A stretch of DNA of 20,008 bases from a virus, in IMG/VR virus record IMGVR_UViG_3300002180_000072, positions 1 to 20,008 of that record; one strand, given 5' to 3'. The position numbers and the translations under genes were made by a program. Positions 71 through 8,526 of this stretch are shown here, piece by piece. The notes under the pieces were generated by a model. That model saw only the letters and a list, made by a program, of their open reading frames with translations. It was not told the origin of the DNA and made no database searches. Within the stretch, counting starts at the first letter, position 1. Every line of letters begins with the position of its first letter.

Positions 71-78
71 CTCTCCTT
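71..78 (-). promoter_or_regulatory. Shine-Dalgarno deciding the start at 63
   Basis: On the minus strand the sequence AAGGAGAG lies about 7-9 bases upstream of the ATG at 61-63. It overlaps the end of the hydrolase gene. It is the main reason to prefer that ATG over the stop-overlapping ATG at 79-81. Confidence 0.55.
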
Positions 79-641
79 CATTTAATATCCAACGCCTTTA
101 CAATCTTAGGCCCAAAGAAACCTAACTTTCTCCACTCAAACACATCACTATGACCGTTGGAAACAAACTCATAATTATCTTCCTTGTTATAGTTGATATA
201 CCGTTCATCATCTCCTATATATCCAGAACTCCCCATCTTTCCCCAAGGATGATTTGGTAACCAACGAGCTATTTTAACCGTACTATCAGACGGTGAATGC
301 CATACATGACAGTGATTGATCTGTGGGGCCAGCTCTGTTCTACGGTTTAGAGCAGCGTTGATATAAACCATCTGAGAAAACGGTGCGTTGTAATGAGCAG
401 CGAGATTCAGAATTGCACATCCGTTACTATGCCCTACCCCAATAGAACCTGGCTCCACGACGCGAGATATAATTCGTGCGATACCTGCGTTACACAGACG
501 CACGCCCAGCAGAAACTTCCACTCATAATCCAACTCCTTTACTGTATAACCAGCTCGCTCAAAATACGGGCGAAGACGGTCAGTAGTACCATCTCCTCCA
601 TCTCTCACATTAAATCCATGTAACAAGTACACCGTTGGCAT
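78..641 (-). CDS. Small serine alpha/beta hydrolase in the lysis region
   Basis: This 187-aa protein has the layout of a compact alpha/beta-hydrolase. An N-terminal strand runs into an oxyanion-type HG pair (LLHGF, residues 6-10). The nucleophile elbow is GHSNG at 70-74, with Ser72 as the probable catalytic serine. Asp119 (in HSPSDS) and His164 (in SNGHSD) are well placed to complete the triad. No signal peptide is visible, so it would act in the cytoplasm unless released or exported by other lysis proteins. The ATG shares one base with the endolysin stop (TAATG), and GGGGAAG lies just upstream, so the two genes are probably translationally coupled. The substrate is unknown. By position it could be an envelope lipid or ester hydrolase, but a metabolic or host-takeover role is also possible. 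The fold call is firm; the role is inferred. Confidence 0.8.
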   Translation of the reverse strand: MPTVYLLHGFNVRDGGDGTTDRLRPYFERAGYTVKELDYEWKFLLGVRLCNAGIARIISRVVEPGSIGVGHSNGCAILNLAAHYNAPFSQMVYINAALNRRTELAPQINHCHVWHSPSDSTVKIARWLPNHPWGKMGSSGYIGDDERYINYNKEDNYEFVSNGHSDVFEWRKLGFFGPKIVKALDIK

Positions 642-1249
642 TACGCTTCCCCAGTAGTTAAGTGAGCCTGCCCTAACGGTAACGCTTTTTGCACGGGCAG
701 AGGATAAGACTTAGGCCAGCGATATCCCAGCACTCGTGAACGTGGAAACGCTTTGATGTTTACAGCGTTAGCCTGGTTGCAGCCCCATACCAATAAGCGA
801 CCTTGTGAATCCTTTCCTACAACCATTCCTACGTGACCTTTCCAAGAGTTCCTACTACCTCTCCAGAATATAACGATGCAGCCAACAGCTGGTTCTTCCA
901 GCTCAACTCCCCATTTTAGATATGATCGAGCATTAGCTTTTCGTGAACTAATGATATCCGCTTCCTCTAACACTCCACCCATCCCGGCTGCGCACCACGG
1001 CGTTTCATCATCACGGATACCAGACATACGTATGGCTACCCACCAGCGAAGAATTTGTGGATTATGTCTGTGGCCTGGAATCTCTTTCAACCCAACATAC
1101 TTTAACGCGATCTTTATCCAAGGATACTGAACAACAGGATCCTCTTTTACCAATCCAGTAAGCCGGTCTAACTCCTCTACCAGCTCCTGCATCAACTTCC
1201 GATCAGTCTTCTCTGCTAGTCGCGCTTTAACTCGTTCGCTAATATTCAT
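641..1249 (-). CDS. Endolysin-like peptidoglycan hydrolase (TIGR02594 / CHAP-like)
   Basis: The 202-aa product matches the TIGR02594 family of phage and bacterial NlpC/P60-CHAP-like cysteine hydrolases, which are expected to cut peptide or amide bonds in peptidoglycan. Recognisable blocks are PWIKIALKYVG-KEIPG-HNP near 43-63, the DDETPWCAA block with probable catalytic Cys86, WGVELEEPAVGCIV near 113-125, GHVGMVVG with probable catalytic His139, and GCNQANAVNI followed by RVLGYRWP near 157-179. About 40 helical, charged residues precede the domain. No signal peptide or membrane helix is seen, so release would need a holin. I place the start at ATG 1249 rather than the in-frame ATG at 1288, because GAGGAG stands five bases upstream and the longer form would run 36 bases into the upstream gene. 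The gene ends in a TAATG overlap with the hydrolase. Confidence 0.88.
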   Translation of the reverse strand: MNISERVKARLAEKTDRKLMQELVEELDRLTGLVKEDPVVQYPWIKIALKYVGLKEIPGHRHNPQILRWWVAIRMSGIRDDETPWCAAGMGGVLEEADIISSRKANARSYLKWGVELEEPAVGCIVIFWRGSRNSWKGHVGMVVGKDSQGRLLVWGCNQANAVNIKAFPRSRVLGYRWPKSYPLPVQKALPLGQAHLTTGEA

Positions 1250-1251
1250 AA

Positions 1252-4200
1252 TTACTCCTCGTACAGTTCTTCCATTCTCTCCGCCCATGGGCGTAATGTA
1301 TTCTGGAATGGCAGACTATGGGACAACCATCTCTTCGTAGCTTCTTCTTTACCGCCAGCCAGTGCTCGCAGCCCTTGTATTGACCACTCAGCCGTGGGCC
1401 CTAGCACGCTCTCCATTGGGAACTTACCATGTTTCATATCCTGGTCAGCATTCACCGCTATCTCACCTACACCGAGCAGTCCAGACCGCTCGAAGGCATA
1501 CCAGGCATGATCCTCTACTTCCCAACCTTCTTTATGAGGATCATCACCGAGCATGTGCTGTAGGGCGTCACGTGCCACCTCAGCCATCATCATGCCAGGT
1601 ATATACATCCCCATCATCATAGCAGGTCGCCAGTCATTCTGTTGCGCAGCCTCGTGATAACCTCTACGGATAATGGTGTCATAGAAGGAATACATGAAGC
1701 CCTTCATGTGGAATACCAACATCCACTTAGGATCTGACGCCCAGGTGGGCCTGGTTGCTGCTGTAGGCCGTAGAATGGCTCCGTCTACCCAACGGTTGAT
1801 GGCTGACTGTACACGGTCCTCACGCTCGATCCTGGCGTCCAGCTGGGTAATAGCGTCGCCTATGTCCTCTCCCTGAAACTTGCGTTCAGTCAGGACATCA
1901 CGCTCAGCCAACAGATCAGCGTATTCCTGGTAACTCATTACTTTTACGTTGCCATCATCAGTAAACTGCAAGTCACCTTCACGCAGCCCCAGCTCATCCA
2001 GATACCGCGCACTGTGTTCAGTCGGGTTCTGACTATGAGACTTGAGAAACTCTGTGGCTCCGGCTACACCCATAACCCTGGTAAACCGAGTGAACTGAGT
2101 CAACATGGTTATGTTGAAAAACCACTCATTCATTCTCTGCAGACCACCAGTAAGATACGTACCGCCATACTGCCACTGCAGCGCTTCGTTGGTAGTGTGC
2201 ATCTCGATAGTACCCAGAGTCTCAGCCAGCTCACGTGTAGCAGTCTTATCGTCCTTGACCTTAGCTTTAATTTCCTCCCAACCGGCTTTATACGCATGCC
2301 ACGCTATCCGCATGTCGCCAGAGCGTACAGCGATGCCCAGAGGGTCTACGAGGCTGGAGAACAGAGCCGTGCTGAGCAGGCGCATGTTCTGGTATACAAT
2401 CATGGCTCCCATGGCTTTCTGGAGCTTAGGATCGATGTCAGCCCCTAATACACCCATTTGAGCATCGGTAAATTTCTGCAGCTGTTCCATCTGCGCTGGA
2501 GTGGCTCCGTGGCTCCTAGCCTTCTGGTACATCTCCTCCATCTTCTCACCATTTTTACCAAAACGCTTAACGAACTCAGCTCGTTTTACACTCTGGTTTA
2601 CATACTGATATAAAGTAGCACCCAGGTCTTTCTGTAAGAACGGTGCTAACTCATCACGGTGGTCATCCAGGAAGTTGAGTGTACGCAGCTCCTGTGCTCC
2701 CATATATGGCCGGTGCATAATCCGTTCACTCATGAAATCCAGATCGCCCTCACCATTATTACGTACAATGGCGGCATAGATGGCGTCAGCCTTACGCTGC
2801 TTCATCTCATCAGTGATCTCTACTCCTTGCATAGCAGGATTCTCCTGCTGAGTACGTTTACCAGTGGCTGGGTCATACGTTACTCGCATACGATAGAAAT
2901 CATCCGGCGCATACTGAATAATCAGCTGTTTGAACCCTTCAGGATCCTGCTGGATAGTATCGATGTCGTAATTACGTGGAAAGTAGTCTGGTCCACGCGA
3001 ACCTATCTCTACACCATTACGTTTGGCGTATGCTCGTACTAACCGCATCACTTTCTGAATTGCCTGCTGTGCTCTGCGTATCTCCGGATCTTCCGACAAC
3101 TGACCTCGTTGCAAGCCATCTATAATCTGCTCAGCATAATCAGTAGAACCGTACTGATTGACGATTTCCTGAATATGTTCTTCAAACTTGCCAGACATAC
3201 GCCGTACACCTTCGTGCCAGGTTTCCTTGATGCCACCGTAGCCATACACACGCTGGAACTGCTGCACAATTAATCGAACGTGTGGGTTACCCATACCTAC
3301 AAGGTTAGCGTAGCCCTGCCCCAAGATCTTCTGTACTGGGTCGCCGACGGTCTCCAGAACATTCCTCACCTGAGCCGTAGCGTACTGAAGTTTATTCTGT
3401 GTGAGTTGTTTAGGCCGGTGTAGCGTCATGGCTGGGTTGGCTTCTTTACGCAGACGCAGCTGCTGATCCTGCAGCACTTTAAGTATATCTCCAGCCTGAT
3501 CATACTTGGTTACAATCCCCAGGATCTCCCGTATACGGAACAGCAGCTTGGCAAACACACCGTTAGCCTGTGGGCCAAGTTTGATTCGCCCTTCGCGTAA
3601 CAGAGCATAGCCGTAGGCCACGGCTTCATCCGGGTTATTACGTATTCGGTCCACAGCTCCAGGAGTACCTGCCAGCTCGCGTTCAAGTTGGCGCATCACA
3701 GGGAATGAAGTAAATGCTCGACTGAGTATTCCCCGCTCTTCAGCATTGAGTAGCGTGTAGAGAGCATCACGAACTGCCTGTTGGTTACCCTGGAAGTCGT
3801 TGTTGTCCAACATGGATGCTGCCATCAGCGCCTCTTGTGGATCGACATCTTTGCCAACATGTGCCCTGACTCGTTTAGCCACTCTGTCGAGAACCTTAGT
3901 CGCCTTATCAGGAGCCTTGGTTTCTTCAGCTACCTCCTTCATCTTGGCTACAGTCTCAACGGTGGTGTTGGATTTGTTGTCCCACAGAGAGTTCAGATAT
4001 CCAGCCACTTTACGATTAGGCATATACCCTTCTTTCTTCATCTGGGCGAACGCTGCTTTGATCGCATCAGCTACTTCCTTGAAGAACTTATCAACCAGTG
4101 AACGTGGGCGCTTATTCATCTCCATCCAGCGAGCGACGTTATCGGCAAACCACTCAGTGTAACCAGTCTCCGACCCAACCAGGTATTCCTGCTGCTCCTC

Positions 4201-7200
4201 AGACATCTCCTGGATATCAATATTATGCCCACGCTCCATACGGTTCATAGCGTAGAAGAAAGGTTTCTTACCTTCCACAGCTGTATGTAGGTCAGTACGT
4301 CCGTGCTTCTTCACCCAGGTCTGGTAAGCCTTGTTCATCGCCTGCTTGGTAGCGTTGTCAGCATTACGCATGAAGTGACCGAACACAGCGTGTCCAATCT
4401 CATGCGAGAGTATTTCAAACCGCTCCACAGCTGTTAGGTCAGGATGAGGATGTACAAATATGTAAGAGGTCTTCCCTTTCGTTGCATGGAATCCATGAGC
4501 CAGGTTACGCTCGATGCGATCCTTCTTATGAGGAGCGACTTTCAGCGCCTCTTCCAAAGTAAGAATCTTGATATTTACATCCAGCCCCATCTTCTCAACA
4601 ATGCGGTCAGCAAACTCCTGCATCTTCTGGTGAGTAGTTGTATCTTCAGCTTTAATCAATTCTCTGATCGTTAGAGGTTCACGAGGCTTGCGTACGCCTT
4701 TTTTTGTACCAGCTTCAGTGATACGTTTAAGCGCGTCATCAAGAGGTTCTACCTTAGCCCCAGAATCTCTCTGCTTAGCTTGTGTTCTTTTTCCTACAGG
4801 TTTCTGTCCCTCAAACCCACGCACAGCTGTTTCTGCTCCACGCATGGTCGGCCCAGCTCCTTCAGCCTGCTCTAACTTAGTTATCTCCTGACGAAGCTTA
4901 CGAACTTCTTGTGCCAGCTCTTTTTTAATTTGGTGCTTTTTCAGTGGCATGATACGCCGCTTCGCATCAGGCATTAATTTCAAAAAGGCTTCATATGCAG
5001 CTTGGTTGCTCATAGAGTCAACCTTGTCACGCAGATCTTTTACCTTCTCATGACGAGAGTTCATCCGCTTCGACGCAGCTGTGTCTTCATCTACACGCTC
5101 ACCTTTATTCTTACGCTTTTCAAAACGCTCTTCCTTAATTTCACGTACAGGATCCCCGCGCTCATCACGATATATAGGGGCAAGTGGTACAGCGTCAGGC
5201 GTACCAGTCTCCGCTCCAGGCTCCTGTTCAATCTCTGACGGATCGAAAACCTGGTAACGTGGGTTGTCAGTCAAACTCTGTACTTGGGTTGTATCGAGAC
5301 TACGCTCAATTACTTCACCAGTTTCGATATCCAATACTGAGAAGAAAGGATAAACTCCAGGTGCTGTTTCCGATTGACTCGGAGTCATGACATCAGCCAG
5401 AGTGAGTTTCGCAGATCCACTCTTATAGACTACGATGCGCTGCTTCACATTGTCAGGAATACTATCAAGATCCACCTGTATATCCTGGTGCATCCGTAGA
5501 GAGTTGAGTCCAGCAATGAGCTGATCACTTACCTGCTGTAACCGTTCTTGGGAATTCACTACACCTTCGATGTCCTGCAGTTTCTGTCCCTTCTCTTTCT
5601 GATACATCATCTGCGACAGACTCATAGCATTGATAATTACCGGCTTACCATCGCCGCGCACACCAACGATGTCATGCTCTTTGAGTTTAGGCACGCCTTT
5701 GGGCGGATCGTAGTAAGGGTTCTCGATATTATCCATGAGCCAGCCTTCTTGACTCTTACTTAAATCTGCAGCTTTACGAGGTTGGCGCAGTGGCTGCGAC
5801 ACCACTTTATCCTGAAACAGCTTTGTAGACAGGTCACGTGGAGAAAGTGCCACGCGCTGGCTGGAGTCGAACAACTTCCCACGAGGATCTAATTCCAACG
5901 TAAGGAAGTGTTCGAGAAACTTCTCTGGGTTTTTTGGATCAAATAATTTATTCCAATCCAGAGTGTTATTCGCAATCTTGCGCTCCAGCTGTTGCTGGCG
6001 TTTCGGTAGCGTCTTATTAATATAGTTCTCCAGGTCAACTACGCTTTGTGAATTGTATTGACCTGCGTTACGTGAACGGTAAGCGCTAGCAGCTTCAATC
6101 AGGATATCGTTATCAGACATATCCCGACGTGCGTTCATAGATTTCAGATTAGCGCTGAGTTTATTGAGTTCTGCTTTATCTGGAGATTCAGATCGTTTCA
6201 TTCTACCGATACGACCTTGTAATGTTTTACTGTTACGATACAGCGCAGTTTTATGCCCACGGATTAACGCCTGAGTTTGCTCAGCACTTAGAGCTGTAAT
6301 ATCAAACCCGGAACCTTCCAACACAGCACTGATATCATCTTCACGAGCCTTAGCATCACTCAAAGCTACATTAGCAGCGTTCATAGTATCAGGGATGCTA
6401 CCCAACGCCCGTTGTAACTTCGAAGATTCTTTCTCAAAAAACCCACGAGCATAGTCAGCCACAAACTCATCTTGTTGGAGTTTAGTTTCGAATGCGCCTT
6501 CAGCTTGAACACGGATCTTATCCAACAGTGTGCGTACTTCTGCGCCTTGCCCAATAGCTCCAAACTGCTCAAGACGTCTATGAATCCCACGCACTGCGTT
6601 CTGCATCATCTCTCTAGCAACAGCTGGGCGTTTACCACGAGCAATCTGTATTGCCTCCCCAGATAATTCTGGCTTGGAATCTTCGAAAATACGGTTCACT
6701 TCTTCAGCAAACATACCGTGGGCAAAAGCCTCATCAGAACCAGGTACAACCCCTTCTCCAACTTCCTGACTAATATCCAGCCCCATGGCCTCAGCTGCTT
6801 CAGGACTAAAATCATCAGCCATCTCCTGGATATCAACTTCAGACAGAGTTGCCTGACGTTCGATCTCTTTGTCCAGATCGCCCATTATCTTGGTAAGTTT
6901 TGGATCTACGCCAGCAGGAGCAGGGATACCACCCAATGCACCGAATGGACCACCGGCGATAGCACCAGCAGCGAAGGCATTCATAATTGCCGACACACCT
7001 TCTTCACCAAGAATCTCCTTATTCTGATCTGCCACCTTCATAGCAGTGCGGCTGATAACTTCCTGCATCGCTTCAGTCGAACCTTCTGTTACAGACTGGA
7101 TCAACGCTTCTTTGCCCATACGTTTAACAACGCCGTTCTTAATCTCTTTGAGGGCCAGTTCTTCTACTGTCTTACCGCCAAACTTATTGAATACACGTAA

Positions 7201-8526
7201 AACAGGCAGTGCTTCCAATGCACCAGCTACAACTCCACCTCCTAGACTGACCAATGCTAGTTGGCGTAAAGACAGTGACCCACCAAAAATACTTTCAGCA
7301 GGCTCAGGAATAGTTCCACGTTTATCACGTGCCTCGATCTGCTCACGAGTTAGCGGTGTTTTTGCGTATTGCGATGTGTACCCTGGAAGTGCGCCTTCTG
7401 CTCCACGCCCCTCGCGTTCGAGCTTATACAGATGCTCTTGCCCTTCGTACCGGGGGTGTACAACTCCGCGTCCAGATTTAAGAACAAGCTCACCGATTGA
7501 TTCGTCGCTATCGGATAAGTACGTATCGTCGATTTGCCTGCCGAATCGATCAACTTTACCTGACGGGGATGTCGCAAGGATTTCCCCTTCTGTGAGTTCC
7601 CGTAAGTACTGCGCTGCTTCATCTTTCCCCTCCTGTCCGACATCAGCTGTGTTAATATGAGGAACGCGGATTCTATAAGGCGCAGAACCATCTTCTGGCT
7701 GAAAGTCGAAAGTATCTCCGTCCACCCACTTAACGGCATATCCCTTCACACCGTTACGAGCATCAGTTATGCGTTCACCACGTTGGATAGCTTCCCAACC
7801 AGCGCGTGTGGCAGGGTCAGTAACAAGAGCAGGCATGATGCCACCTGCTTCCAGCCCCATACCAGTGCCGATAGCTGTTTTGAAAGCAGTACGACGAATA
7901 CCTTTACGACTTATCTCTTGAGCGGCAGTCCCAGCTAAACGACGAGTGGCTTCACGGCCAGCTACAGGAAGAGCGCCACGTTGCGCAGCAGATAGCGCCA
8001 TGTCCTTGGTCATACGCTTCGCTTGCTTCTTTGCAGTAGTAGCGATGAGTTTCTTACTAATGGAGTGCGCAGCAGTCTTAGCAACTACTCCACCAACACC
8101 ACCACCGGCGATAATCGTAGCGAGGGAAGGAAGGGCTTCGCCCATCTTGGCAGCAACGAAAGATCCAGCATCTTCAAGACTTTCAATATCTTCAAGAGTA
8201 TTGATCTCAGGAGCTACAAAAGAAGCTGCTTCAAAATACTTCTGCGCTCGTTCTGCAGATTCGATAGCAGCATCATCAGCACCAACAAGTGCTTGAGCGG
8301 CACTCTTCACTCCATGATAGGCTCCAGCAGTACCTTCTAAACCAGAACGTAACCCACGTTTAAAAGAAGACTCAGTATCAGCGCTTCTTATTGGGCCCTC
8401 ACCAAACTGCTGTACTGGTTCAGTTAGAGCATAAGGGTCATAGCGAGTATCTTCAGCTTCTTCGTAAGCTTTTTGTGAAGCCGCATACTCATCCTCAAGC
8501 TGATGCTTGAAATCACGAATACCCAC
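1252..8526 (-). CDS. Giant polyvalent virion protein with nuclease and zinc-protease domains
   Basis: This 2424-aa protein is by far the largest in the window. The order I can read is: a charged N-terminus; Gly/Ala-rich hydrophobic segments near 131-150 and 218-236; a staphylococcal-nuclease-type domain near 260-360; further hydrophobic segments near 420-445 and 514-538; a long helical, charged middle; a basic linker; a zinc metallopeptidase domain near 1305-1500 with HEIGH at 1375-1379 and probable third ligand Glu1458; and a C-terminal ~650 residues with landmarks PDYFPRNY at 1846 and WASDP at 2262. A Met-rich hydrophobic stretch lies near 2290-2320. Phages of podovirus type often carry such polyvalent proteins inside the virion and eject them with the DNA; that role is inferred here from architecture and position. 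The start is GTG, with AAAAGG eight bases upstream, two bases after the upstream stop; the next Met is residue 128. No vRNA-polymerase or lysozyme motif was recognised. Confidence 0.88.
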   Translation of the reverse strand: MGIRDFKHQLEDEYAASQKAYEEAEDTRYDPYALTEPVQQFGEGPIRSADTESSFKRGLRSGLEGTAGAYHGVKSAAQALVGADDAAIESAERAQKYFEAASFVAPEINTLEDIESLEDAGSFVAAKMGEALPSLATIIAGGGVGGVVAKTAAHSISKKLIATTAKKQAKRMTKDMALSAAQRGALPVAGREATRRLAGTAAQEISRKGIRRTAFKTAIGTGMGLEAGGIMPALVTDPATRAGWEAIQRGERITDARNGVKGYAVKWVDGDTFDFQPEDGSAPYRIRVPHINTADVGQEGKDEAAQYLRELTEGEILATSPSGKVDRFGRQIDDTYLSDSDESIGELVLKSGRGVVHPRYEGQEHLYKLEREGRGAEGALPGYTSQYAKTPLTREQIEARDKRGTIPEPAESIFGGSLSLRQLALVSLGGGVVAGALEALPVLRVFNKFGGKTVEELALKEIKNGVVKRMGKEALIQSVTEGSTEAMQEVISRTAMKVADQNKEILGEEGVSAIMNAFAAGAIAGGPFGALGGIPAPAGVDPKLTKIMGDLDKEIERQATLSEVDIQEMADDFSPEAAEAMGLDISQEVGEGVVPGSDEAFAHGMFAEEVNRIFEDSKPELSGEAIQIARGKRPAVAREMMQNAVRGIHRRLEQFGAIGQGAEVRTLLDKIRVQAEGAFETKLQQDEFVADYARGFFEKESSKLQRALGSIPDTMNAANVALSDAKAREDDISAVLEGSGFDITALSAEQTQALIRGHKTALYRNSKTLQGRIGRMKRSESPDKAELNKLSANLKSMNARRDMSDNDILIEAASAYRSRNAGQYNSQSVVDLENYINKTLPKRQQQLERKIANNTLDWNKLFDPKNPEKFLEHFLTLELDPRGKLFDSSQRVALSPRDLSTKLFQDKVVSQPLRQPRKAADLSKSQEGWLMDNIENPYYDPPKGVPKLKEHDIVGVRGDGKPVIINAMSLSQMMYQKEKGQKLQDIEGVVNSQERLQQVSDQLIAGLNSLRMHQDIQVDLDSIPDNVKQRIVVYKSGSAKLTLADVMTPSQSETAPGVYPFFSVLDIETGEVIERSLDTTQVQSLTDNPRYQVFDPSEIEQEPGAETGTPDAVPLAPIYRDERGDPVREIKEERFEKRKNKGERVDEDTAASKRMNSRHEKVKDLRDKVDSMSNQAAYEAFLKLMPDAKRRIMPLKKHQIKKELAQEVRKLRQEITKLEQAEGAGPTMRGAETAVRGFEGQKPVGKRTQAKQRDSGAKVEPLDDALKRITEAGTKKGVRKPREPLTIRELIKAEDTTTHQKMQEFADRIVEKMGLDVNIKILTLEEALKVAPHKKDRIERNLAHGFHATKGKTSYIFVHPHPDLTAVERFEILSHEIGHAVFGHFMRNADNATKQAMNKAYQTWVKKHGRTDLHTAVEGKKPFFYAMNRMERGHNIDIQEMSEEQQEYLVGSETGYTEWFADNVARWMEMNKRPRSLVDKFFKEVADAIKAAFAQMKKEGYMPNRKVAGYLNSLWDNKSNTTVETVAKMKEVAEETKAPDKATKVLDRVAKRVRAHVGKDVDPQEALMAASMLDNNDFQGNQQAVRDALYTLLNAEERGILSRAFTSFPVMRQLERELAGTPGAVDRIRNNPDEAVAYGYALLREGRIKLGPQANGVFAKLLFRIREILGIVTKYDQAGDILKVLQDQQLRLRKEANPAMTLHRPKQLTQNKLQYATAQVRNVLETVGDPVQKILGQGYANLVGMGNPHVRLIVQQFQRVYGYGGIKETWHEGVRRMSGKFEEHIQEIVNQYGSTDYAEQIIDGLQRGQLSEDPEIRRAQQAIQKVMRLVRAYAKRNGVEIGSRGPDYFPRNYDIDTIQQDPEGFKQLIIQYAPDDFYRMRVTYDPATGKRTQQENPAMQGVEITDEMKQRKADAIYAAIVRNNGEGDLDFMSERIMHRPYMGAQELRTLNFLDDHRDELAPFLQKDLGATLYQYVNQSVKRAEFVKRFGKNGEKMEEMYQKARSHGATPAQMEQLQKFTDAQMGVLGADIDPKLQKAMGAMIVYQNMRLLSTALFSSLVDPLGIAVRSGDMRIAWHAYKAGWEEIKAKVKDDKTATRELAETLGTIEMHTTNEALQWQYGGTYLTGGLQRMNEWFFNITMLTQFTRFTRVMGVAGATEFLKSHSQNPTEHSARYLDELGLREGDLQFTDDGNVKVMSYQEYADLLAERDVLTERKFQGEDIGDAITQLDARIEREDRVQSAINRWVDGAILRPTAATRPTWASDPKWMLVFHMKGFMYSFYDTIIRRGYHEAAQQNDWRPAMMMGMYIPGMMMAEVARDALQHMLGDDPHKEGWEVEDHAWYAFERSGLLGVGEIAVNADQDMKHGKFPMESVLGPTAEWSIQGLRALAGGKEEATKRWLSHSLPFQNTLRPWAERMEELYEE
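1255..1260 (-). promoter_or_regulatory. Shine-Dalgarno deciding the endolysin start
   Basis: GAGGAG on the minus strand sits five bases before the ATG at 1247-1249 and spans the last codons of the large upstream gene. It supports the shorter 202-aa endolysin over the 215-aa form. Confidence 0.75.
4027..4614 (-). other. HEIGH zinc-metallopeptidase domain inside the giant protein
   Basis: Residues about 1305-1500 form a probable zincin domain. HEIGH at 1375-1379 gives two zinc-binding histidines and the catalytic glutamate. TEWFADN carries Glu1458, a likely third ligand in the gluzincin manner, about 80 residues later. A strand-rich run (SYIFVHPHPDL) just before the motif fits the edge strand of such enzymes. 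Such domains occur in phage and plasmid polyvalent proteins. They may cut host targets after ejection or process the large protein itself; the sequence does not say which. Confidence 0.82.
7447..7749 (-). other. SNase-like (thermonuclease) domain inside the giant protein
   Basis: Residues about 260-360 contain the hallmarks of the staphylococcal nuclease (OB) fold: VKWVDGDTFDF at 265-275, the IRVPHINTADV block at 286-296 and DRFGR at 326-330. Aligned by motif to the classical enzyme, Asp269, Asp271, Thr272, Arg287, Thr293 and Arg330 are kept. The Ca2+-ligand Asp40 equivalent is Asn292 (codon AAC) and the general-base Glu43 equivalent is Asp295. The domain is therefore clearly of this family but may have altered or weak activity. 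It lies between the hydrophobic segments of the N-terminal part, which suggests that the N-terminal quarter of the protein works as a unit. Confidence 0.82.

Follow-up and report, generated by a model that had tools for sequence, protein, structure and literature searches.

What does a virus do with a single polypeptide of 2424 residues that combines hydrophobic segments, a thermonuclease-type (SNase) domain and a zinc metallopeptidase, as encoded in a 20,008-bp stretch of a viral record (IMG/VR IMGVR_UViG_3300002180_000072, positions 1 to 20,008; hereafter the window)? The initial annotation, made from the sequence alone, had proposed a polyvalent protein that is packaged in the phage head and ejected into the cell, and this proposal is well supported as a reading by the homology of the C-terminus to the T7 gp16 class, by structure matches, by the position of the gene at the end of its cassette and by the annotation of the family homologues as virion structural proteins. 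In our best explanation, the giant is very probably a protein that a short-tailed relative of phages KPP25 and phiA008 carries inside its virion and ejects, with a gp16-class C-terminus and enzyme domains plugged into the chain.

The giant gene, its neighbours and its family

The giant is encoded as one chain in a single open reading frame, as the initial annotation had it, and the neighbouring proteins of 457 and 621 aa match the charged and the long helical protein described there (Table 1). Over 18.5 kb, the window matches a section of a 70,109-bp IMG/VR contig with 100% identity; on this contig the giant, itself 100% identical, comes last among the large virion-module genes and marks the end of the virion gene block. 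This contig also codes for TerL, portal, major head protein (MCP), DNA polymerase and a primase-like protein, and its TerL has KPP25 and phiA008 as closest relatives. A PHROG scan placed a head-closure family protein near the giant.

Table 1. Coordinates of the giant gene, its predicted parts and its neighbours in the window
Feature	Position	Strand	Basis
Giant protein, 2424 aa	1252..8526	(-)	ORF list; GTG start, directly past upstream stop
N-terminal domain, first half, aa 51-240, helical, Gly/Ala-rich	7807..8376	(-)	hmm 34-175, 2.5e-30
Inserted block aa 241-417 carrying the SNase domain	7276..7806	(-)	N-terminal HMM match breaks off at hmm 175 (aa 240) and resumes at hmm 178 (aa 418)
SNase-type core, aa 262-362	7441..7743	(-)	PHROG 452, 2.6e-5; profile vs PDB, 3e-11
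N-terminal domain, second half, aa 418-538	6913..7275	(-)	hmm 178-291, 1.2e-34
Middle segment aa 920-1095, possible small conserved domain	5242..5769	(-)	Parts with pLDDT 70-85; weak similarity to KPP25 and phiA008
Predicted zincin Z1, aa 1291-1480; HEIGH at 1375, EWFAD at 1458	4087..4656	(-)	Conservation, model, PHROG 87
Z2 remnant, aa 1601-1691, HExxH half lost	3454..3726	(-)	Live-Z2 HMM, 6e-13, hmm 58-148 only
C-terminal region, predicted ejection region, aa 1825-2424	1255..3054	(-)	hhalign and BFVD structure matches; remote homology to T7 gp16 class (internal virion protein D)
Charged Ala/Arg/Gln-rich protein, 457 aa	8529..9902	(-)	Composition comparison
Largely helical virion-module protein, 621 aa	9915..11780	(-)	PHROG 10969, 1e-102
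CHAP-type peptidoglycan hydrolase	641..1288	(-)	Pfam CHAP, 1.6e-5, 25.7 bits vs cutoff 26; PHROG 1259 tail lysozyme, 1.4e-38

Comparable loci carry a protein of 385-896 aa, usually Ala/Arg/Gln-rich, immediately upstream of the giant, the exception being L020 with only a 194-aa ORF there, and homologues of the 621-aa helical protein occupy the matching position in ctwe8250, L013, L017 and L019. This recurrence of the upstream pair supports a conserved three-gene module; tblastn of the 457-aa protein against phages gave no match. By position and size, the giants of these loci would suit the place of the last and largest gene of a T7-type ejection module, which follows a gp15-like gene. Downstream, the CHAP ORF, if its start is at 1288, would overlap the 3' end of the giant by 37 nt, an overlap that an inner ATG start would avoid, and an ORF at 78-641 (-), of 187 aa, has a GHSNG motif like that of alpha/beta-hydrolases and matches nothing in Pfam or PHROG. 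Homologous 620-aa helical proteins are also followed by giants of 2166 and 3799 aa in ctwe8250 (L030:18021-24521; annotated 'DNA repair protein') and Epa33 (L031:19103-30502), and these have HExxH motifs and no detectable C-terminal homology to the giant of the window.

By sequence comparison, the giant belongs to a family made up of KPP25 ORF088, phiA008, 11 further metagenomic contigs and three bacterial contigs. Profile scans of viral contigs recovered, besides KPP25 and the 70-kb contig of the window itself, 11 further distinct giants (with near-identical copies on two contigs), tblastn matches to the C-terminal third came from KPP25-type phages, tf and phiA008, and PHROG 30152, a family of virion structural proteins, matched the giant at 1.1e-89 over its C-terminal third. 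KPP25 is placed in the Podoviridae by a title in the reference list of PMC13340246, and the open papers hold no confirmation of KPP25 ORF088 or LUZ24 gp50 by mass spectrometry. The bacterial contigs are from Motiliproteus (L023) and Endozoicomonas (L024, a partial sequence only, and L025); L023 and L025, both with an N-terminal SNase, are probably prophages or phage contigs. Weak Pfam matches to Uroplakin, NETI, PIN_8 and CdiA tRNase fell below the cutoffs and were taken as noise.

The closest known systems share the architecture to different degrees. KPP25 ORF088 and its CRPAP1904 homologue (PHROG 30152) have the N-terminal domain, a zincin and the C-terminal region in the same order as the window, and KPP25 ORF088 is 29% identical to the giant over 827 aa; it differs, however, in that it has no SNase, lacks Z1 and has Z2, reduced to a remnant in the window, as its live zincin. 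Aeromonas phage phiA008 pA_gene0066 (2051 aa) resembles the window in its SNase, hydrophobic N-terminal domain, Z1 and C-terminal region, but has the SNase at the extreme N-terminus, over aa 1-125, and lacks the Z2 remnant. LUZ24 gp50 and tf gp51 have the N- and C-terminal chassis in common with the window, whereas tf gp51 is only 1021 aa long, without zincin and without SNase. As the tf version consists of the N-terminal and C-terminal parts only, the chassis exists without the enzymes.

The SNase block and the zincins

An HMM of the N-terminal domain, built from relatives with the window left out, matched the giant at 2.2e-63 overall, and reversed sequences gave no score. In the relatives this domain runs uninterrupted over the site at which the window has a block of 177 residues, and the SNase block, as judged from this alignment, is a clean insertion into the N-terminal domain. 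The Gly/Ala-rich hydrophobic segments that had been proposed were recovered by hydropathy, the best 19-residue stretches (Kyte-Doolittle mean) lying at aa 131-149 (1.65) in the first half of the domain and at aa 425-443 (1.77) and 513-531 (1.38) in the second; all three are Gly/Ala-rich and no more than borderline candidates for transmembrane helices. Most relatives show a clear C-terminal hydrophobic segment, which is weaker in the window protein. For aa 1-1110, the AlphaFold model was of low quality (pLDDT 51, SNase unformed) and was used only for the first helical domain, where aa 50-130 were modelled as helical with a pLDDT of about 85.

The SNase domain lies between these segments, as the initial annotation had claimed. 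The PHROG 452 endonuclease family matches aa 266-361, and a profile of the SNase domains of the window and four relatives retrieved staphylococcal nuclease structures; Pfam SNase found no match in the window protein alone, and it is therefore PHROG 452 and the family profile that carry the assignment. The phiA008 copy exceeds the Pfam cutoff (29.9 bits vs 21), and a scan of the collection with L023 in the SNase search found nothing. In staphylococcal numbering, the window copy retains D19, D21, R35 and R87, but D40 is replaced by N and E43 by D, and it thus falls short of the full catalytic set (D21, R35, D40, E43 and R87), every position of which is retained in phiA008 and L023. We take D40 and E43 of staphylococcal nuclease to be metal-ligand and general-base positions. 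Because of D40N and E43D, nuclease activity of the window copy is doubtful, and the action on host DNA that had been suggested is not established by a copy with these substitutions, in a domain that most relatives are missing.

In a tree of the C-terminal region, the members with an SNase at the extreme N-terminus (phiA008, L023, L025 and L028) form one clade (support 98/97), and five of the six members of the window's own clade have no SNase. The window domain is 20-28% identical to those four copies and 26-37% identical, over partial matches, to free-standing phage SNases, and it is no closer to the former than to the latter. Given the different site and the different clade, the simplest reading is that the SNase probably entered the family twice, although a single domain that moved within the family is possible.

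It is quite conceivable, even if we lean slightly against it, that the block is a dead or decaying passenger, non-catalytic and retained solely to bind nucleic acid or to act as a spacer, as the two substitutions and the rarity of the domain within the window's clade would suggest. Against this stand the four positions that the window copy retains, and the other clade, in which an SNase at another site, catalytically complete in phiA008 and L023, argues for repeated recruitment of this fold. We favour the reading of the block as an accessory effector, which might bind or slowly cut nucleic acid near the entry site.

By its motif and predicted secondary structure, Z1 is classed as a zincin metallopeptidase with putative protease activity, and the HEIGH...E metallopeptidase of the initial annotation is thereby upheld. 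PHROG 87, a metallo-protease family, matches the Z1 region (4e-4). Twelve members share Z1, with HEhGH or HEhAH followed by an EEWFAD-like motif and with H76, E77, H80, E159, W160 and A162 invariant. In addition, the model of aa 1290-2424 shows a helix, three strands, the HExxH (HEIGH) helix and a third-ligand (EWFAD) helix, the layout described for the MPTases of polyvalent proteins (PMC5512222). An intact HExxH is present in 17 of the 17 homologues compared, the short version of tf apart, at an expectation from composition of 0.007-0.09 per protein.

In KPP25, L017 and L019, the live zincin is the other one, Z2, immediately before the C-terminal region. An HMM built from these three also matches L026, L015, L012, L013 and the window, where the match begins only at position 58, which is why we consider the HExxH half of the window's Z2 to be gone. 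The live-Z2 members form one supported clade in the C-terminal tree (98/97), and the window groups, with weaker support (81/94), with members in which Z1 is live and Z2 mostly dead. One zincin thus appears to have replaced the other, in either order, with a live one present throughout. The giant of L022 (L022:1-10359, more than 3452 aa), with three HExxH motifs, carries another accessory domain on the same chassis, which is DprA-like and lies at aa 716-851 (PHROG 768, 2.4e-11).

The zincin would most likely cleave its own chain after assembly or ejection and so separate the membrane, effector and hub parts, and a role of the MPTase as polypeptide processor has been proposed for polyvalent proteins (PMC5512222). 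That it instead targets a host or envelope protein following ejection seems rather unlikely to us; Iyer et al. name effector roles as another option (PMC5512222), and the retention of a live zincin in every member other than tf, even though two different zincins serve, would agree with such a target, while none of the matches suggests a host target. N4 vRNAP, also with an HExxH domain, is packaged unprocessed (PMC5512222), and hence both self-cleavage and host cleavage are putative.

The C-terminal region and the T7 gp16 class

The alpha-helical C-terminal region is the most conserved part of the giants, with invariant residues across 15 members; it had been put at about 650 residues, and while its presence and conservation stand, its size is better given as about 600-820 aa. 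By profile comparison, the C-terminal ~600 aa are remotely homologous to the T7 gp16-class internal virion protein D. In hhalign, a joint profile of T7 gp16, phiKMV gp37, JG068 gp39 and LIMElight was matched at 97.2% (E 4.5e-11) and one of phiKMV and LIMElight alone at 97.5% (E 8e-12), the alignments being collinear across most of the region (380-505 columns), and reversed and column-shuffled profile controls reached at most 0.6%. As single members, LIMElight scored 95.8% and phiKMV gp37 54%, and T7 gp16 alone was undetected (0.3%), so that the link to gp16 depends on the phiKMV-type members. Values were near zero against T7 gp15, N4 gp50, ctwe8250 and F116-like Epa33, and homology of the C-terminus to T7 gp15 (0.1%) was rejected.

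Structural comparison of the model with BFVD by Foldseek retrieved KPP25 (3e-31), a large number of entries under the name 'large polyvalent protein' and the internal core or virion proteins of Ab05, VP2, LIMElight, RSB3, CB5A, JG068 and others (3e-9 to 2e-6), with low TM-scores (at most 0.44) and large rmsd. No solved structure in the PDB resembled the C-terminal model by Foldseek, and the best PDB sequence match of the C-terminal profile, a dehydrogenase (0.008), was taken as chance.

T7 gp16 and phiKMV gp37, collinear with the window in the C-terminal part, differ from it in their length of about 1320-1340 aa and in having no SNase, and the HExxH domain is shared by phiKMV gp37. T7 gp16 further has an N-terminal SLT transglycosylase (1.7e-31), whereas neither Pfam nor PHROG found one in the giant; this domain is phage-specific and not universal in the gp16 class (PMC8954989). 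The motif is HEAVH in phiKMV gp37 (L033:5567-9577) and HESMH in LIMElight (L035:4911-9014), in both ahead of the gp16-like C-terminal region, and T7 gp16 has no HExxH at the corresponding place.

N4 vRNAP gp50 shares a layout of membrane N-terminal domain, central enzyme, HExxH domain and helical C-terminus (PMC12633501), but the window has no RNA polymerase domain by Pfam or PHROG and the C-termini are not detectably homologous (hhalign 0.6%), and membership in this group was rejected. The vRNAP idea had been prompted by this layout and by a weak PHROG 2206 match of L023, whose N-terminal domain retrieved no vRNAP in tblastn.

The giant is also like the polyvalent proteins of Iyer et al. (2017), in which several unrelated enzyme domains and a zincin occur in one phage late-gene polypeptide, as it has an SNase fold and a zincin in one chain among virion genes; no Pfam LPD domain was found in it. 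The combination of enzymes is thus present as the initial annotation had stated, but it is not unique, with phiA008, L023, L025 and L028 also having SNase and zincin on the same chassis.

This likeness raises the possibility, which we find doubtful, that the giants are packaged mainly as effectors against host defence or competing phages, the C-terminal part being merely a packaging or delivery tag. The zincin is the hub domain of polyvalent proteins (PMC5512222), the closest BFVD matches carry the label of large polyvalent proteins, and the accessory domains vary, with an SNase in the window, phiA008, L023, L025 and L028 and a DprA-like domain in L022. However, it is the C-terminal region that is most conserved, it aligns with the part of gp16 placed in the cytoplasmic hub, and the tf version dispenses with the enzymes altogether. 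That the giant instead belongs to a long-tailed phage, as its tail tape-measure or another of its tail proteins, as a very long helical protein late in a structural operon next to a CHAP protein of a tail lysozyme family might suggest, is very improbable in view of the TerL closest to KPP25 and phiA008, the match of the C-terminus to internal virion proteins of short-tailed phages and the head-closure family protein coded nearby.

A proposed course of entry and its implications

The homology of the C-terminal ~600 aa to the T7 gp16 class supports an ejection role, and on account of it the giant should act like T7 gp16 in membrane association and DNA entry. In T7, gp16 is an ejected protein with two putative membrane regions and a cytoplasmic DNA-binding hub (PMC8954989). 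We infer that the giant and the two upstream proteins would be packaged together in the head, that the giant would leave it before the DNA on ejection, that its Gly/Ala-rich N-terminal segments and the C-terminal hydrophobic segment would associate with the inner membrane, like the two putative membrane regions of T7 gp16, and that the C-terminal region would serve as an inner-membrane or cytoplasmic hub for DNA entry.

Here we speculate further, on a reading that we consider distinctly unlikely, that a nuclease fold was built into a gp16-type entry protein of short-tailed phages on at least two independent occasions, and that this would yield a membrane-tethered, virion-delivered nuclease at the DNA entry gate, released or switched on by the zincin, that would act on host or competing DNA in the first moments of infection.

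On its gp16-class chassis the giant carries polyvalent enzyme domains, among them an SNase, a domain with 0 occurrences in the main text of the 2017 survey (PMC5512222), and it ties together the giant virion proteins of KPP25 and LUZ24, the ejection proteins of the T7 gp16 class and the polyvalent zincin proteins. The role of the zincin is directly testable in cultured phages such as KPP25 and phiA008, and the HExxH of phiKMV gp37 would be worth testing as well. The entry protein thus emerges as a chassis that swaps its enzyme domains, with an SNase at two sites in two clades and one zincin exchanged for another.
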